This document shows, piece after piece, positions 31,487-39,262 of a DNA stretch of 64,000 bases. The position numbers were made by a program, and so were the translations under genes. Position 1 is the first letter of the stretch; the number at the start of each line of letters is the position of its first letter. Below the pieces are notes generated by a model, which saw only the letters and a list, made by a program, of their open reading frames with translations, was not told the DNA's origin and did not search any database. The stretch is from positions 1 to 64,000 of the forward strand of contig CAJXMH010000010.1 in assembly GCA_913056345.1 (NCBI GenBank). The letters are read 5' to 3'. This DNA comes from an uncultured Flavobacteriales bacterium. Its GTDB lineage: Bacteria; Bacteroidota; Bacteroidia; Flavobacteriales_E; Vicingaceae.

Positions 31487-32797
31487 TTATGTTTTGTTAA
31501 TCGCGGTTTTATAGGTATCAAGAGCTCTTTCTCTGGCAAACTTGTGTTCAACCATTTTTTCAGGATAAGTTGACTTATCGTAATCCACAATCCAACGTTT
31601 GATATAGGTGTGGTTTTTATCAAATTTATCAACTTGAGTGATGGGGTTAAATACCCTAAAGTATGGTGCTGCATCAACACCGGTTCCGGCAGCCCATTGC
31701 CAGTTTCCATTATTGGATGACAATTCATAATCAAGCAACTTTTGGGCAAAGTACGCTTCTCCCCAACGCCAATCGATTAAAAGATGCTTGGTTAAGAAAC
31801 TTGCTACAAGCATGCGCACCCTGTTGTGCATAAATCCTGTTTTATTAAGTTCTCGCATTCCAGCGTCAACTAAAAGATATCCCGTTTCTCCCTTGCACCA
31901 TTTCTCAAAATCTTTTTCATCATTTCTCCACTCTATTGCATCATACTTGGCATTAAAGTTATGATCTACCACTTTGGGATAGTGATACAAAATGGTCATA
32001 AAGAACTCTCTCCAAATTAATTCCTTTAGAAAGGTGAGACTTTTACCTTTTGCTTGTTTTGCAACTTCTCTAACGCTTACCGTTCCAAACCTCAAATGAA
32101 CTCCCAATCGAGAAGTACTGTCTTTAGGGGGAGAGTCTCTTTCATCCTCATAAACCTCAAGTGTATGATCAGTTAGATTAGCATTGGGAATGGTCAAGCT
32201 AGATTTCTTGAAACCCATTTCTTTAAGCGGAATAAGGGCCTCAGCTTGATGCTTTTTCCAATTGTCGAACATTAATCCTGAAGTGTATGAATCAAGATCT
32301 GAATCTTTTAAAGTGTCTAACCACTTCTTACTATATGGTGTGTAAACTAAATAGGGTTCGCCATTATCCTTTACTACCTCATCTTTTTCAAATATAACTT
32401 GATCTTTAAAGGTGTTGAAAGCAATACCTTGTTCTTTCAGAAGCTGTTGAACTTGCTCATCCCTTTCTTTAGCGTATGGCTCATAATCATGATTGGCGTA
32501 GATGGCTTTTACATCATATTCTTCACACAGCTTTTTTATCTCATCCACAGCATGACCATACCTACTTAAAAGAGTGCTCCCTTTAGATTGTTGCAACGTC
32601 TGATTTATATCACGCAGCTCTTGGTGAATAAAACTAAGGCGAGCATCGTTTCGGTCTTTAAGGTCATCCAAGATTTGACGATCGAAAATAAAAAAAGGCA
32701 AGACCTCTTCATCTCCTTTAAGGGCATGATAGAGGCCACAATTATCTTGAAGCCTTAAATCTCTTCTAAACCAGAAAAGGTTAATCTTTTTACTCAT
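31487..32797 (-). CDS. phrB: Deoxyribodipyrimidine photolyase (class I-like)
   Basis: A 436-residue flavoprotein that repairs UV-induced pyrimidine dimers using blue light. The antenna domain opens INLFWFRRDLRLQDNCGLYH. The FAD domain has RFGTVSVREVA, ELIWREFFMTILYHYP, and the very conserved run GFMHNRVRMLVASFL, DWRWGEAYFAQKLLDYELSSNNGNWQW, and APYFRVFNP. The NGNWQW segment includes the Asn/Trp residues typical of CPD photolyases. It is the last gene of the light cluster, 3 bp after the SDR gene. Regulation is therefore probably through the MerR photoreceptor and ECF sigma factor upstream. A blue-light receptor role cannot be excluded. Confidence 0.93.
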   Translation of the reverse strand: MSKKINLFWFRRDLRLQDNCGLYHALKGDEEVLPFFIFDRQILDDLKDRNDARLSFIHQELRDINQTLQQSKGSTLLSRYGHAVDEIKKLCEEYDVKAIYANHDYEPYAKERDEQVQQLLKEQGIAFNTFKDQVIFEKDEVVKDNGEPYLVYTPYSKKWLDTLKDSDLDSYTSGLMFDNWKKHQAEALIPLKEMGFKKSSLTIPNANLTDHTLEVYEDERDSPPKDSTSRLGVHLRFGTVSVREVAKQAKGKSLTFLKELIWREFFMTILYHYPKVVDHNFNAKYDAIEWRNDEKDFEKWCKGETGYLLVDAGMRELNKTGFMHNRVRMLVASFLTKHLLIDWRWGEAYFAQKLLDYELSSNNGNWQWAAGTGVDAAPYFRVFNPITQVDKFDKNHTYIKRWIVDYDKSTYPEKMVEHKFARERALDTYKTAINKT

Positions 32798-32800
32798 GGT

Positions 32801-33493
32801 TTAGCGAAGGGTACTTAAACCACCATCTACTTTTAAAATTTGCCCACTAACCCATCCTGAATCATCAGAAAGTAAGTAATGAGCAGCATTGGCCATATCT
32901 TCTGGAGTTCCTAACTTCTTTAAGGGATGACGTTTAGCATTAGCCTCTCTTTTATCGTCTGAAGACAATAGGTTTTCGGCCATTGGTGTATCTGTTAAAG
33001 AAGGTGCAATCGCATTAACCCTAACCTTAGGGGCTAATTCACAAGCTAGTGAACGTGTTAATCCCTCTATGGCTCCTTTAGCTGAAGCAACACTTGCATG
33101 AAAGCTAAGACCAGTTTGAACCGCAACAGTGCTAAACAATACAACGGATGCAGAACCTGACTTTTTAAGCGGTTTAAATGCTTGCTGTAATACCTTAACT
33201 GCGCCTAGATGATTGATCTTGAAGTCATTTAAAAAATCCTCTTCTTTTAAACGATTAAAAGGCTTCAAGTTTATTGTACCCGGACAATAAACCACACCGT
33301 GAAGTTCATCTGGCAAATCCAATTCAAAATCTTTGGTAATATCTATTTCTTGAAAGTTTACCTTATCAGAGGTTTGTATGTTTCCTTGTGTTCTTGAGGC
33401 TAGATATAGTGTTGCTCCAGTTTCTTTGAGTTTATCTGCGATTACTTCACCAATGCCACTGCTGGCACCGATTATTAAATAGTTCTTTGACAT
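32801..33493 (-). CDS. Atypical SDR-family protein lacking the catalytic tyrosine
   Basis: A 230-residue classical-SDR-size protein. The cofactor site GASSGIG (residues 9-15) is intact. The usual NNAG is replaced by YCPG around 69-72. The YxxxK motif reads V135-A-S-A-K139, so K139 is kept but the catalytic Tyr is Val, and the preceding Ser region reads LFSTVAV. The C-terminal KVDGG is present. It binds NAD(P) but may not catalyse normal carbonyl reduction. It lies between crtB and phrB (3 bp before phrB). From memory this replacement recurs in homologues beside Bacteroidota photolyases, which I have not tested. Confidence 0.82.
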   Translation of the reverse strand: MSKNYLIIGASSGIGEVIADKLKETGATLYLASRTQGNIQTSDKVNFQEIDITKDFELDLPDELHGVVYCPGTINLKPFNRLKEEDFLNDFKINHLGAVKVLQQAFKPLKKSGSASVVLFSTVAVQTGLSFHASVASAKGAIEGLTRSLACELAPKVRVNAIAPSLTDTPMAENLLSSDDKREANAKRHPLKKLGTPEDMANAAHYLLSDDSGWVSGQILKVDGGLSTLR

Positions 33494-33544: not shown

Positions 33545-34381
33545 TTACAAAATACCGGCTTTGTAAAACAAAAAGCTTCTGAGGAGTAAATAGTATTTCT
33601 GAATATTAGGGATCCTAATTCGCTCTCTTAAAACTCTACTTGCTTCTACTGTTTTTATTTTTTTGTGCAAGGCATAATAATAGATGTAAGCAGTATAAAC
33701 TCCAAACCTAGCGTTTGATGGAAGCTGCTTTATGCCTTCGTAGCCTGCTTGGAAGTCTCGCTCGATCTCTTCTTCAATGGCACACTTATCTTTTTCGGTA
33801 AAGTTTTCTAGGTCTACTTTCGGGAAATATGAACGTCCCTTTTCCTCAAAGTCTGCCTTTAAATCTCTAAGGAAATTAATTTTTTGAAAAGCTGCACCAA
33901 GCTTTCTTGCGGGTTCTACGAGCTTTTGATATTGTGATTCATCTCCCTTACAAAAAACCTTGAGACACATTAAGCCCACTACTTCAGCCGACCCATAGAC
34001 GTACTCCTCAAAACCTGCTCGATCATAATCCTTTTTAAAGAGGTCATATTCCATGCTTTTAATAAAGGCATCTATGAGATCTTGGTCGATGTTGTATTTA
34101 TTCACCGTTAGTTGAAAGCTATGCAAGATCGGGTTCAAACTAAACTCTCTGCTAATAGCTTGATTGGTGGCTTCAACAAATTCGTTTAAAAGTCTTTTTT
34201 TGTCCTGATCATGAAAGGTGTCAACAATTTCATCTGCTAAGCGAACAAAACCGTAGATCGCATAGATGGAATCATGAATGGAGCTATCGAGCATTTTAAT
34301 ACCAAGCGAAAAAGATGTACTATAGGTATTGGTAATAACCTTACTACTCTTCAAAGCAGACTCATGGTACAACTCCTTCAT
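33545..34381 (-). CDS. crtB: Phytoene synthase
   Basis: A 278-residue squalene/phytoene synthase-family enzyme that condenses two GGPP into phytoene, the first committed carotenoid step. The two aspartate-rich motifs are visible: RLADEIVDTFHD (DxxxD-type, near residue 50) and INFLRDLKADFEEKGR (near residue 165). SYSTSFSLG at the N-terminus fits the family (NTYSTSFSLGIKML). It is downstream of crtI by only 4 bp, so it is in the same operon. Cyclase and hydroxylase genes are absent from this window and must lie elsewhere. Confidence 0.94.
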   Translation of the reverse strand: MKELYHESALKSSKVITNTYSTSFSLGIKMLDSSIHDSIYAIYGFVRLADEIVDTFHDQDKKRLLNEFVEATNQAISREFSLNPILHSFQLTVNKYNIDQDLIDAFIKSMEYDLFKKDYDRAGFEEYVYGSAEVVGLMCLKVFCKGDESQYQKLVEPARKLGAAFQKINFLRDLKADFEEKGRSYFPKVDLENFTEKDKCAIEEEIERDFQAGYEGIKQLPSNARFGVYTAYIYYYALHKKIKTVEASRVLRERIRIPNIQKYYLLLRSFLFYKAGIL

Positions 34382-34385
34382 CCTA

Positions 34386-35858
34386 CTAAATTACCTTTTT
34401 CAATATTTCTTTGGCCACTACTTGACCTGAAATCAGAGAAGGTGGCACACCCGGTCCAGGGGTGGTTAATTGACCAGTGTAGTAAAGGTTTTTGAGCTTT
34501 TTATTGACGATACTTGGTTTTAAGATCGCAGTTTGTGTAAGCGTATTAGCCAAGCCATAGGCGTTACCTTTATAGGCGTGGTAATCTGAAATAAAATCGC
34601 TGTGAGCGTAAGACCGTTTATAAATCACATGCTCCCTAATCTTTTGACCAGTAAGTTTTTCTAAACGATCCATAATGAGGTGATAATACTTTTCTCTCAC
34701 TTCTTCCTCATCATTCAAATTAGGAGCAACTGGCATTAATAAAAATAGGTTTTCACAGCCTTCCGGGGCAACGCTATCGTCAGTTACAGATGGAACACAT
34801 GCATAAAATAAGGGTTTACTAGGCCATTGCGGGTTATCATAAATTTCCTGTGCATGCAATCCAAAATCCTCATCAAAGAACAGGTTATGATGCAGAAGAT
34901 TCTTTAATTTCTTATCAATTCCAAGGTAAAAAAGTAAACTGCTAGGAGCCATTTTTCGCTTGTCCCAGTATTCTTCAGAATAATTATGATGTTCGGCTTT
35001 TAAAATTTGCTTGTCGGTATGATGATAGTCAGCTCCGCTAATGAAAGCATCTGCGGAAAAGTTACCTTTTGTAGTTTCTGCAGCGACCACCCTTCCTCCT
35101 TCGGTAGTAAAGCCTTTTACTTCGCAATCAAACTCAAACTTTACGCCCTTTTCTTCGGCTAAAGCAACCATACCTTCTACAATTTTATGCATTCCTCCTT
35201 TGGGATACCAGGTGCCCAATTGTATGTCTGCATAATTCATTAGGCTGTATAGTGCAGGAGTTTCTTGTGGTTTTGCGCCTAGAAATAAGACTGGAAACTC
35301 CATCAACTTTAGCAGCTTCTCGTGAGAGAAATAATTCTTCAAATGAGCACTTAAAGATTGAAAAAGTTGCATTCGAAACACTCCTGAGATGACTCTCCAT
35401 TGAGCAAACTCAAAGATGGAACGGCTAGGCTTATGAACCAGATCGTTCATGCCAACCTCGTACTTATAGGCTGCTTCTTTCAAGAACTTTTCCAAACCTT
35501 TGGAACTTCCTTTTTCATAACTCTCAAAAAGGACCTTAAGCTCATCAAAGTTTGCAGGAATATCAACTCGATCGTCCTTACCAAAATAGACTGCATAAGA
35601 TGGATCGAGCCTTTCGAGCTGATAATAATCACTTACTTTTTTTCCGAATTTCTCGAAATAAGCTTCAAAAACATCGGGCATCCAATACCAACTTGGACCC
35701 ATATCAAAAGTGAAACCGGAGGCTACGAATGATCTCGCTCTACCTCCGGCTTGACTGTTTTTTTCAAGAACGGTAACGGTCTTTCCTTGATCTGCCAAGG
35801 TGGTGGCGGCTGCAAGAGATGCAAAACCAGAACCAACGACCACAATATGTTTACTCAT
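34386..35858 (-). CDS. crtI: Phytoene desaturase
   Basis: A 490-residue FAD-dependent desaturase that converts phytoene towards lycopene. The FAD-binding N-terminus is VVGSGFASLAAATTLADQGKTVTVLEKN followed by GGRARSFVASGFTFDMGPSW. The C-terminal GPGVPPSLISGQ, with an FAD/substrate-binding core, is characteristic of CrtI. It lies 9 bp after the ECF sigma gene and 4 bp before crtB. The usual GxGxxG dinucleotide motif reads GSGFAS, typical in this family. Confidence 0.94.
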   Translation of the reverse strand: MSKHIVVVGSGFASLAAATTLADQGKTVTVLEKNSQAGGRARSFVASGFTFDMGPSWYWMPDVFEAYFEKFGKKVSDYYQLERLDPSYAVYFGKDDRVDIPANFDELKVLFESYEKGSSKGLEKFLKEAAYKYEVGMNDLVHKPSRSIFEFAQWRVISGVFRMQLFQSLSAHLKNYFSHEKLLKLMEFPVLFLGAKPQETPALYSLMNYADIQLGTWYPKGGMHKIVEGMVALAEEKGVKFEFDCEVKGFTTEGGRVVAAETTKGNFSADAFISGADYHHTDKQILKAEHHNYSEEYWDKRKMAPSSLLFYLGIDKKLKNLLHHNLFFDEDFGLHAQEIYDNPQWPSKPLFYACVPSVTDDSVAPEGCENLFLLMPVAPNLNDEEEVREKYYHLIMDRLEKLTGQKIREHVIYKRSYAHSDFISDYHAYKGNAYGLANTLTQTAILKPSIVNKKLKNLYYTGQLTTPGPGVPPSLISGQVVAKEILKKVI

Positions 35859-36362: not shown

Positions 36363-36483
36363 TGCTTTTTGTTTAATGTTTGTTGTCCAAAGTTAAACAA
36401 TTTGTTTATACACAGAAATTTTTGTTTACTTTTTTTAAAAAATGGTTAAACAGAAATTTTTGTGGTAATAATATAATAAGAAA
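36363..36483. promoter_or_regulatory. Operator/promoter region of the light-response operon
   Basis: The 121 bp carry TTGTTTA-type half-sites at 36369-36375, 36394-36400 (inverted), 36402-36408, 36422-36428 and 36447-36453 (inverted, one mismatch). TAAACAA-T-TTGTTTA (36394-36408) is a perfect 7-bp dyad that overlaps the minus-strand -7 box TAACTTTG at 36388-36395. ACAGAAATTTTTGT occurs twice, at 36412-36425 and 36450-36463. The layout fits several dimers of the adjacent MerR regulator binding over the promoter. Confidence 0.6.
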
Positions 36484-37350
36484 CTAGCCTACTTGAGCAA
36501 CCATATCTTCCTTGTCTGTAAATCTACTTACCCAAGAAGGATATTCGATTTTCCAACCATTTTGATACTTGTTCTCTAGAAAATAAACTCCGTCTGCCTT
36601 GATGTCTTCCATTCTGTTGAACAAACTCTCAATTTCACCTTTCTTCTTAATAATGCTATAAGAAATAACCCAATTGGGCTTTAATTTCTTTGAAAGAAGC
36701 GCTACTTGTTCAGCAGGAACAGATTGTCCAAGGTAAAAGACGTTAACACCTTTTTTCTTTATTAAGTAGTAGAAATACAATAATCCTAATTCATGAAACT
36801 CGTTTTCAGGCAAGAAAAGAATTGCTTTTTTATCACTTTCGGGTTTAGGCAGCTGTTCGATAGCTGAAATAATCTTATTTCTTACTATATGTGTTATGAA
36901 ATGCTCTTGCCCCGGCTCTACCTCGTCTGTAAGCCAAAGAATACCAACTCTTTCTAGAAAAGGATATATTACACTATTTAATGTTTCCTCAAAACCAAGT
37001 TCTTCAACATATTGATCAAATAAGTTTTGAAAAGCAAATCCATCAACACCAAGCATGCTTTCAACTAAGTCGGCAACTTTTTTCTTATTTTGAATGTCTT
37101 CATTTTCAATACTTCTTACTTTATTGACCAACTCGTTGTCGGAAAGCTCAGCAATCTTAGAAATCTTCATTCCATTGTTGCTTAACAAAGAAACATTTAA
37201 CAACCTCTTCAAATCCTCATCAGAATATAATCGAATATTTGTATCTGTTCGCTCAGGATCTAAAAGATTATATCTTTTTTCCCAAATCCTCAGAGTATGT
37301 GCTTTTATACCTGAAAGCTTTTCTAAATCTTTTATTGAATAGGTGGACAT
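36484..37350 (-). CDS. MerR-family cobalamin-dependent photoreceptor regulator (CarH/LitR-like)
   Basis: A 288-residue transcription regulator. Residues 1-70 are a MerR winged helix (YSIKDLEKLSGIKAHTLRIW). Residues ~85-165 form a helical domain with W139-x9-E149-H150 (WLTDEVEPGQEH), the signature of the CarH light-sensing cap. Residues ~175-288 are a B12-binding Rossmann domain with E184-x-H186-x2-G189 (EFHELG), which supplies the lower cobalt ligand. CarH-type proteins with adenosyl-B12 repress in the dark and release DNA on light. It is upstream of the ECF-crtI-crtB-SDR-phrB operon and 121 bp from it, and divergent from uvrC. A GxSxxG-like B12 tail motif is not obvious. Confidence 0.9.
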   Translation of the reverse strand: MSTYSIKDLEKLSGIKAHTLRIWEKRYNLLDPERTDTNIRLYSDEDLKRLLNVSLLSNNGMKISKIAELSDNELVNKVRSIENEDIQNKKKVADLVESMLGVDGFAFQNLFDQYVEELGFEETLNSVIYPFLERVGILWLTDEVEPGQEHFITHIVRNKIISAIEQLPKPESDKKAILFLPENEFHELGLLYFYYLIKKKGVNVFYLGQSVPAEQVALLSKKLKPNWVISYSIIKKKGEIESLFNRMEDIKADGVYFLENKYQNGWKIEYPSWVSRFTDKEDMVAQVG

Positions 37351-37360
37351 ATGATATTCC

Positions 37361-37368
37361 TAAATATA
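37361..37368 (-). promoter_or_regulatory. Putative -7 promoter box (TATATTTA) with upstream TTG for the MerR gene
   Basis: Minus-strand TATATTTA starts 18 bp after a TTG (37389-37387), a good Bacteroidota spacing, and ends 10 bp before the ATG at 37350. Confidence 0.45.
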
Positions 37369-37444
37369 CTTTGTACTAAAAACAAACAAGCTTGCAATAA
37401 ATTAGTTCAACTGAGAAACAATCAGGAAAAGTATCTCTTGATTT

Positions 37445-37452
37445 TATATTTG
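37445..37452 (+). promoter_or_regulatory. Putative -7 promoter box (TATATTTG) for uvrC
   Basis: Exact TAnnTTTG match only 4 bp before ATG 37457, implying a very short or absent leader. Confidence 0.5.
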
Positions 37453-37456
37453 CAAA

Positions 37457-39262
37457 ATGATTGGTGAAAAAAGTTTGCAAGAACAAGTTAAATCGGCGCC
37501 TAAAAAACCAGGTGTTTACCAATACTATGATAAGAAGGGAAAGCTGCTTTATGTGGGAAAGGCTAAGCTTTTAAAAAATCGCGTTGCCTCATACTTTAAC
37601 AACGATAAGCAGAAAAGTGGCCGTATTCGCTTATTGGTTAAGAAAATCGACTCTGTAAAGTACATCATTACAGAAAGCGAACTTGATGCTCTTCTACTTG
37701 AAAATAACCTGATCAAGAAGCATCAGCCCCGATACAATGTGATGCTAAAAGATGATAAGACTTATCCTTGGATCTGCATCAAAAAAGAACCCTTTCCTAG
37801 AGTGTTCAAAACTCGAACTGTAATTAAAGACGGGTCGGAATATTTTGGGCCTTATGCCTCAGTGAAAATGATGAATACCATTCTGGACTTGGTTCGAAAA
37901 AACTATAAGTTAAGAACCTGTGCCTATCACCTTAATCAAGAAAACATTGAAAAAGGAAAGTTTAAAAAGTGCCTAGAATATCACATTGGAAACTGCAAAG
38001 CTCCTTGCGTGGGTAAACAAACAGAAGCTGATTACGACCAAAGCATTGAGGAAATTCGAAACATTATCAAAGGAAATGTTGGGGAGGTTAAGCGTCAATT
38101 AAAACAAAGTATTAATAAGGCCGCAGAACAATTGGATTTTGAAAGAGCGGCAGACCTTAAACAAAAGTTAGATGCTTTTGAAAAGTTCCAAGCGAAGTCA
38201 ACCGTGGTTAACCCAAGCATTCACAATGTGGATGTATTCTCGATGGTAGAAGACAAGGATCTCGCTTATGTAAATTACATGAAAGTGAACAATGGTGCTA
38301 TTATTCAAAGTCACACCTTGGAGCTGAAGCGTAAATTGGAAGAAAGTAAAGAGGAGCTTTTAGAGCTTGCTGTTATCGAATTACGTGAGCGTTTTAGCAG
38401 TGTTTCAAAGGAAGTCTTGGTTCCCTTTATGCCTAGCTATGAAATTGAAGGCTTACAGTTTCATCGACCCCAAAGAGGTGACAAGAAAAAGCTGCTCGAG
38501 CTTTCAGAAAGAAATGCGAAGTACTTTATGCTAGAACGTAGAAAACAACAAGCCAAAACAGACCCTGAGCGACACACCAATCGCATTCTAGAAGGGATGA
38601 AGAAAGACCTTCGCCTTCAAGAGCTTCCACGACACATTGAGTGCTTTGACAATTCAAATATTCAGGGTACCAACCCCACAGCAGCATGCGTGGTGTTTAA
38701 AGATGCTAAACCTTCTAAAAGGGATTATCGGCACTTTAATATAAAAACTGTAGAAGGCCCGGATGACTTCGCTTCGATGGAAGAAGTTGTGCACCGCCGC
38801 TACCGCCATTTATTAGAAGAAGATGAGCCATTACCTCAGCTTATCGTGATCGACGGTGGTAAAGGACAATTAAGTTCTGCTTTAAAAAGTCTGGATCGTT
38901 TAGGCTTGAGAGGTAAAATAGCTATTGTAGGAATTGCCAAACGTTTAGAAGAGATCTTTTATCCGGGAGACAAATACCCCCTCTTTCTTGACAAAACCTC
39001 TGAAACCTTAAAAGTAATTCAGCACCTTCGTAATGAAGCGCATCGATTTGGTATTACTCACCACCGAAACAGAAGGTCTAAAGCTGGCATCCAATCAGAA
39101 CTTTCGAACATTAAAGGAATCGGTGAAAAGAGCGCAGAAGAACTATTGCGAAAATTCAAGTCAGTGAAGAGGGTGAAAGAAGCTAAACTAAAAGAGCTGG
39201 AAGAAGTATTGCCCTTAAGAAGAGCTAAAGTCGTTTATAAGTACTTTCAGGAAGAAGGATAA
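37457..39262 (+). CDS. uvrC: UvrABC excinuclease subunit C
   Basis: A 601-residue nucleotide-excision-repair nuclease, which makes both incisions at a DNA lesion with UvrB. The GIY-YIG nuclease opens KKPGVYQYYDKKGKLLYVGKAK. A UVR motif (LDFERAADLKQKLDAF) lies near residue 225. The C-terminal RNase H-like nuclease has CFDNSNIQGTNPTAACVVF and LPQLIVIDGGKGQL. The helix-hairpin-helix tail (IKGIGEKSAEELLRKF) is complete. Length is normal. It is divergent from the light regulator, which places a second DNA repair gene next to the photolyase operon; whether it is light-regulated is not shown. Confidence 0.97.
   Translation: MIGEKSLQEQVKSAPKKPGVYQYYDKKGKLLYVGKAKLLKNRVASYFNNDKQKSGRIRLLVKKIDSVKYIITESELDALLLENNLIKKHQPRYNVMLKDDKTYPWICIKKEPFPRVFKTRTVIKDGSEYFGPYASVKMMNTILDLVRKNYKLRTCAYHLNQENIEKGKFKKCLEYHIGNCKAPCVGKQTEADYDQSIEEIRNIIKGNVGEVKRQLKQSINKAAEQLDFERAADLKQKLDAFEKFQAKSTVVNPSIHNVDVFSMVEDKDLAYVNYMKVNNGAIIQSHTLELKRKLEESKEELLELAVIELRERFSSVSKEVLVPFMPSYEIEGLQFHRPQRGDKKKLLELSERNAKYFMLERRKQQAKTDPERHTNRILEGMKKDLRLQELPRHIECFDNSNIQGTNPTAACVVFKDAKPSKRDYRHFNIKTVEGPDDFASMEEVVHRRYRHLLEEDEPLPQLIVIDGGKGQLSSALKSLDRLGLRGKIAIVGIAKRLEEIFYPGDKYPLFLDKTSETLKVIQHLRNEAHRFGITHHRNRRSKAGIQSELSNIKGIGEKSAEELLRKFKSVKRVKEAKLKELEEVLPLRRAKVVYKYFQEEG

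Follow-up and report, generated by a model that had tools for sequence, protein, structure and literature searches.

The carH-type gene and its neighbours

The window (the whole stretch of 64,000 nucleotides analysed here, from an uncultured Flavobacteriales bacterium) contains a carH-type gene that begins with ATG and reads from 37350 to 36484 on the minus strand, followed after a gap of 121 bp by genes for an ECF sigma factor, a phytoene desaturase, a phytoene synthase, an SDR oxidoreductase and a photolyase, all on the same strand (Table 1). The earlier note had placed carH directly upstream of an ECF sigma, carotenoid and photolyase operon, and this was confirmed: the nearest relatives repeat the gene order uvrC/carH-sigma-crtI-crtB-SDR-photolyase, other families do likewise without uvrC, and in some other loci carH is followed by crtI-crtB directly. 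A cobalamin riboswitch was rejected as a candidate, as Rfam found no element in the operon (only a tRNA elsewhere in the window).

Table 1. Genes and regulatory features around carH (window coordinates)
Feature	Position	Strand	Remarks
carH-type gene, 288 aa	36484..37350	-	MerR HTH, four-helix bundle, Rossmann B12 domain
ECF sigma factor, 164 aa	35868..36362	-	no anti-sigma gene seen adjacent
crtI/CrtID phytoene desaturase	34386..35858	-	NCBIfam NF058655, above cut-off
crtB-type phytoene synthase	33545..34381	-	SQS_PSY
SDR oxidoreductase	32801..33493	-	conserved operon member
DNA photolyase/cryptochrome family protein	31487..32797	-	last gene of operon
uvrC	37457..39262	+	divergent from carH; arrangement kept in nearest relatives
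Candidate operator O1, TGTTTAACTTTGGACAACAAACATTAAACA	36370..36399	-	inverted repeat TGTTTA-N18-TAAACA, overlaps -7 box
Candidate operator O2, TGTTTAACCATTTTTTAAAAAAAGTAAACA	36423..36452	-	same repeat; directly upstream of -33 element
Sigma-A -7 box, TAACTTTG	36388..36395	-	within O1; consensus TAnnTTTG
-33-like element TTTC	36415..36418	-	19 nt upstream of -7 box; assigned by inference
Predicted ECF-type promoter of carH, GAAC-N16-TGTT	37385..37408	-	RAAC-N16-YGTT in relatives

Pfam recognized MerR_1 and B12-binding_2 in the window CarH; the N-terminal MerR-type HTH matched PF13411 with an E value of 6.9e-18, and its RIWEKRY helix was invariant in 54 relatives. When PDB sequences were searched with phmmer, the CarH of Thermus thermophilus (TtCarH, a class I LitR/CarH protein; PDB 5c8a/5c8d/5c8e/5c8f) gave the top matches (5c8d/3whp, E about 1e-19) at an identity of about 22%, and the alignment paired W139, E149, H150 and H186 of the window CarH with W131, E141, H142 and H177 of TtCarH. 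The Wx9EH cap motif (W139-x9-E149-H150) lies in the four-helix bundle, both in this alignment and in the AF2 fold, and the D/ExHx2G lower-ligand motif (E184-x-H186-x2-G189) lies in the Rossmann B12 domain, where E184, H186 and G189 correspond to E175, H177 and G180. The AF2 model, made from the 54 relatives (mean pLDDT 89.5), had a MerR HTH, a four-helix bundle and a five-stranded Rossmann domain, and Foldseek ranked TtCarH chains at the top of the PDB, the best cobalamin-domain matches being at 2.6-2.8 A over about 200 columns. G136, W139, E149, H150, E184 and H186 were invariant across the 54 aligned relatives. Thus the residues that the earlier note had read as the cap Trp, Glu-His and lower-ligand motif were all numbered correctly in the 288-aa translation (W139, E149, H150, E184, H186, G189), with the cap Trp, Glu-His and lower-ligand His in register with TtCarH, and its remark that no GG tail motif is visible also proved right, as E259-N260 occupies that place. 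The NCBIfam CarH equivalog NF052513 scored 96.3 bits (E 1.9e-27), below its cut-off of at least 400 bits. No second CarH-like protein was found in the organism's own genome.

Departures from TtCarH and the light step

His132 serves TtCarH as upper ligand in the light state and is present in many, though not all, CarH proteins; its position, the residue after the cap Trp, is taken by Leu140 in the window CarH, and that of Gly174 by Asn183. The nucleotide-tail motif, given as SxT/V and GG (PMC9304148), is replaced by Y231-x-I233 and E259-N260, and most relatives keep the second Gly alone at the GG place. W131, E141, H142 and H177 (TtCarH numbering) were all kept in 166 of 175 Bacteroidota homologues, and none of these 166 intact homologues had His at position 132 (Gln in 98, Leu in 33, others in the remainder); Pro was found at position 138 in 150 Bacteroidota homologues, and several TtCarH interface residues were not conserved. 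By the four-element signature of light-responsive cobalamin-binding domains from the SignatureFinder work (GxxW, EH, GxxH, GxxxP; PMC11796333), the window CarH has GxxW, EH and GxxxP and departs at GxxH (NxxH, by Asn183); 53 of the 166 intact homologues carried all four elements and 113 did not. Since both His132 and GG fail, the protein was placed in the CarH/LitR superfamily as its Bacteroidota variant: the case that it works like CarH is strong, whereas the case that it is a CarH of the TtCarH type is weakened.

In TtCarH, His132 is needed for the light-driven dissociation of the tetramer, and the H132A protein stays largely tetrameric in light (PMC10442372). With Leu140 at this position, and the GG tail also lost, the textbook bis-His switch is impossible in the window CarH. 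The absence of His132 from all 166 intact homologues, together with the behaviour of H132A, would suit a protein that binds AdoCbl and senses B12 level or redox state, not light, the His132-dependent release being missing. However, CtMerR (PDB 8jbs/8jbt) and the photocobilins are light-responsive B12 domains that lack His132 as the window CarH does, the residue being Arg in CtMerR, Gln in SasPcob and Tyr in AbDPcob, and CtMerR still monomerises in light (PMC11796333); therefore light dissociation by another route would be possible in the window CarH, although, unlike these proteins, it fails the published GxxH element. The prediction of the earlier note, a dark repressor that falls apart in light, is thus well supported as to the CarH/LitR type (by fold, residues, synteny and operator) and needs amending as to dissociation in the manner of TtCarH.

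Another explanation is that the window CarH is a repressor like CarA or class II LitR that works at the same operators without B12, light being sensed by a partner (a blue-light receptor or singlet-oxygen path). CarA of Myxococcus and class II LitR/PplR of Pseudomonas belong to the same protein superfamily and are B12-independent precedents (PMC9304148, PMC9758184), the window CarH has lost the nucleotide-tail elements GG and SxV, and drift from B12 use has happened in some Bacteroidota paralogues that lost the lower His or key residues. CarA lacks the Trp and class II LitR lacks the B12-binding domain, both of which the window CarH has. Against this explanation, an unused pocket would not account for the joint retention of W, E, H and H in 166 of 175 homologues or for their invariance among the 54 relatives, and the own genome encodes a PduO-type adenosyltransferase. 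We consider this explanation unlikely. By sequence the genome also encodes MetH and methylmalonyl-CoA mutase, and because of these three enzymes AdoCbl is expected in the cell. Separately, a minority of Bacteroidota CarH paralogues lack the lower-ligand His or other key or cap residues (loci L066, L097, L136, L150, L167, L169, L175 and L176), apparently resembling independent CarA-like B12-independent forms.

A candidate operator and the genes behind it

The candidate operator was first recognised by side-by-side comparison of homologous carH-sigma gaps. The TGTTTA/TAAACA pair was present in 39 of 49 distinct gaps (0.7 in dinucleotide shuffles), and the spacer of 56 gap pairs was exactly 18 in 40 and 19 in 7. 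O1 and O2 of the window are 53 bp apart (about five helical turns), and a distance of 52-55 bp is common in the tandem pairs of relatives. The 2.9-Mb own genome has only three exact copies of the repeat TGTTTA-N18-TAAACA, of which two lie in the carH-sigma gap (reversed control, 0); because a one-mismatch search of the same genome found about as many control matches as real ones beyond the known sites, single-mismatch sites were used only if conserved in relatives. TAnnTTTG is the consensus of the flavobacterial sigma-A -7 box (PMC9723704), and its exact form lay inside 27 of 37 gap operators (1.1 expected), always at offset 4 or 14/15; the -33-like element is TTTG in relatives such as locus L184. 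An operator over the predicted -7 box is the layout of a housekeeping promoter under repression.

The N18/19 repeat was also looked for before carH itself and was found there in 6 of 49 loci with sigma next and in 11 of 67 with sigma not next; given these counts, autorepression by an operator upstream of carH was not adopted for this window. No CarH-type operator was present upstream of uvrC, whose co-regulation had been considered. Sites inside ORFs (loci L286, L289, L294 and L320) and upstream of SRP54 (L291) were put down to chance. Within an incomplete coverage of the literature, we found no published operator for a Bacteroidota CarH.

Across genomes the operator followed CarH. In an order-wide scan of 46 genomes with the 14-letter form TGTTTAA-N16-TTAAACA, 68 sites were found (5 in the reversed control), with 63 in 31 CarH-positive genomes versus 5 in 15 CarH-negative genomes (p 8e-5, kinship uncorrected); in a wider phylum sample, at the level of the class, 132 sites were found in 56 CarH-positive genomes (reversed control 9) versus 2 in 17 CarH-negative genomes (p about 1e-6, kinship uncorrected). 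This co-occurrence partly reflects shared ancestry. In one genome (G004) the sigma gene lies away from carH and the operator is still present.

From these sites we infer that the candidate operator is bound by CarH itself. As that binding is our reading of the sequence, and as the operator of TtCarH reportedly consists of direct repeats, unlike the inverted repeat here, TGTTTA-N18-TAAACA might belong to another regulator acting on the same light regulon, CarH binding elsewhere; yet two tandem copies adjoin carH, the own genome has a single CarH-like protein, and site presence and number follow CarH (a genome with three carH copies, G028, has ten sites), which makes a different owner of the sites quite unlikely.

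Every exact, retrievable site in the order was taken regardless of function, and the adjacent ORFs were read with Pfam. Behind these sites stood ECF sigma genes, proteorhodopsins, three glutathione peroxidases, three photolyases (with 2-7 bp between operator and start codon), GTP cyclohydrolase I (FolE) and two PTPS genes, two TetR_C_23 regulators and two DUF2867/NmrA proteins, as well as a conserved 155-aa protein in three genomes (L287:2497-2993, L288, L290), SRPBCC-like by eye and without a Pfam match at the cut-off used, whose operator lies 3 bp before the start codon. Fasciclin proteins carried the operator in three genomes (L309, L311 and the own genome, whose third exact site, G000:C16:16872-16901 or L227:9873-9902, lies immediately upstream of a gene for a fasciclin-domain lipoprotein, with a flavin-reductase-like gene next). 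On an Eleftheria plasmid (locus L181), a fasciclin gene adjoins a MerR/CarH-like gene. At least five secreted DUF4397 proteins had the operator (loci L293, L297, L307, L312, L313, L315 and L318), so that this function-unassigned family looks light-regulated; several of them have a C-terminal sorting domain. Photolyase (phrB) and folE are also found in the PplR/class II LitR light regulon of Pseudomonas (PMC9758184). The predicted targets (photolyase, carotenoid, rhodopsin and photo-oxidative genes) are thus light and photo-oxidative genes, not B12 genes, which speaks against the sensor of B12 level or redox state raised above and leaves it very unlikely.

The own rhodopsin gene (Bac_rhodopsin PF01036, E 1.5e-44) lies outside the window and is followed by a beta-carotene 15,15'-dioxygenase gene, blh; the two genes and the site before them are at G000:C4:56285-57200 (L229, L234). 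Read by eye, the rhodopsin has what we take to be the proton-pump pattern D-T-E and a Met at the colour-tuning place, fitting a green absorber. About 60 bp upstream is an operator site with one mismatch (G000:C4:56285-56314), and because one-mismatch control matches are comparably frequent genome-wide, the case for this target depends on how far the site is kept in relatives. Of 9 rhodopsin genes in the order, 6 had the operator at no more than one mismatch, at -77 to -91, three of them perfect (spacer 18 in two, 19 in one). Among named CarH-positive genomes of other families, 4 of 9 proteorhodopsin upstream regions had it within the same limit, exact in Robiginitalea sediminis and with one mismatch in Paucihalobacter ruber, Aureicoccus marinus and a Flavobacteriaceae MAG. 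In the phylum sample it was found within one mismatch in 7 of 9 rhodopsin genes of CarH-positive genomes versus 0 of 33 in CarH-negative ones, a distant rhodopsin locus (L356, CarH-positive, no site) having been excluded because its rhodopsin is of another type. Since the CarH-negative set is GC-richer and of other families, this is partly a phylogenetic contrast, and the significance is carried by shuffles of the same upstream regions, which gave a mean of at most 0.1 sites per set. Proteorhodopsin is reported to be expressed constitutively in Dokdonia PRO95 (PMC3587595), which counts against such control. In the literature, as far as our incomplete coverage goes, CarH and proteorhodopsin appear together in passing mentions at most.

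The carH promoter and the proposed regulon

Upstream of carH, the RAAC-N16-YGTT promoter was present in 12 of 14 uvrC-carH intergenic stretches (0.25 in shuffles) and, over all loci, before 33 of 52 carH genes with sigma next versus 19 of 68 otherwise (p 1e-5). The divergent carH-uvrC gap is 37351-37456 in the window, and the conserved ECF-type promoter in it faces carH in relatives. As this promoter has the ECF form, the sigma factor probably drives carH, which suggests, with CarH repressing sigma, a negative feedback loop.

The fold, the invariant cap and lower-ligand residues, the synteny and the repressor-like operator give good support to a CarH/LitR-type sensor as the likely controller of the carotenoid and photolyase operon. 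Read together with the overlap of operator and promoter, the targets and the co-occurrence with CarH, they make it probable, in our judgement, that the window CarH is a Bacteroidota-type AdoCbl-binding MerR repressor of a light regulon that includes proteorhodopsin, bound in the dark, released by light and subject to sigma feedback. In the dark, the AdoCbl-bound CarH oligomer would occupy the TGTTTA-N18-TAAACA operators overlapping the sigma-A -7 box, thereby blocking transcription of ECF sigma-crtI-crtB-SDR-phr; unlinked genes would be blocked too, namely the fasciclin lipoprotein and proteorhodopsin-blh in the own genome and photolyase, glutathione peroxidase, FolE, PTPS and DUF4397 genes in relatives. 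Green or near-UV light would break the Co-C bond and free CarH from DNA, a release that must go without bis-His ligation because the His132 equivalent is Leu or Gln. The ECF sigma made in light would then read the RAAC-N16-YGTT promoter of carH and restore the repressor. The earlier note did not mention Leu140, Asn183, the operator, the ECF-type carH promoter or the regulon beyond the operon, in which proteorhodopsin stands out.

Among known systems, TtCarH shares with the window CarH the MerR HTH, the four-helix cap and the Rossmann B12 domain, the Trp, Glu-His and lower His in register, and the linkage of carH to crtB and phr, as seen in T. brockianus; it differs in His132, Gly174 and the GG tail, in its operator, and in that here an ECF sigma gene follows carH. 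LitR-LitS of Streptomyces coelicolor, of a different phylum, pairs a CarH-type repressor with ECF sigma, crt and phr genes in the same way, and we know of no operator or sigma-to-carH feedback of this kind in that system.

We lean towards the view that a His132-less Bacteroidota CarH variant directly controls proteorhodopsin synthesis, so that B12-based perception of green or near-UV light would set the timing of proton-pump building along with the carotenoid, retinal and photorepair genes. Roughly two thirds of these Bacteroidota proteins escape the published four-element signature, and the clade-wide absence of His132 offers a large natural set for studying how a B12 photoreceptor releases DNA without bis-His ligation. 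The operator regulon suggests how these bacteria may turn on light harvesting in light, and a defined operator at proteorhodopsin promoters together with a B12 photoreceptor lends itself to direct tests and would tie the supply of vitamin B12 to photoheterotrophy.
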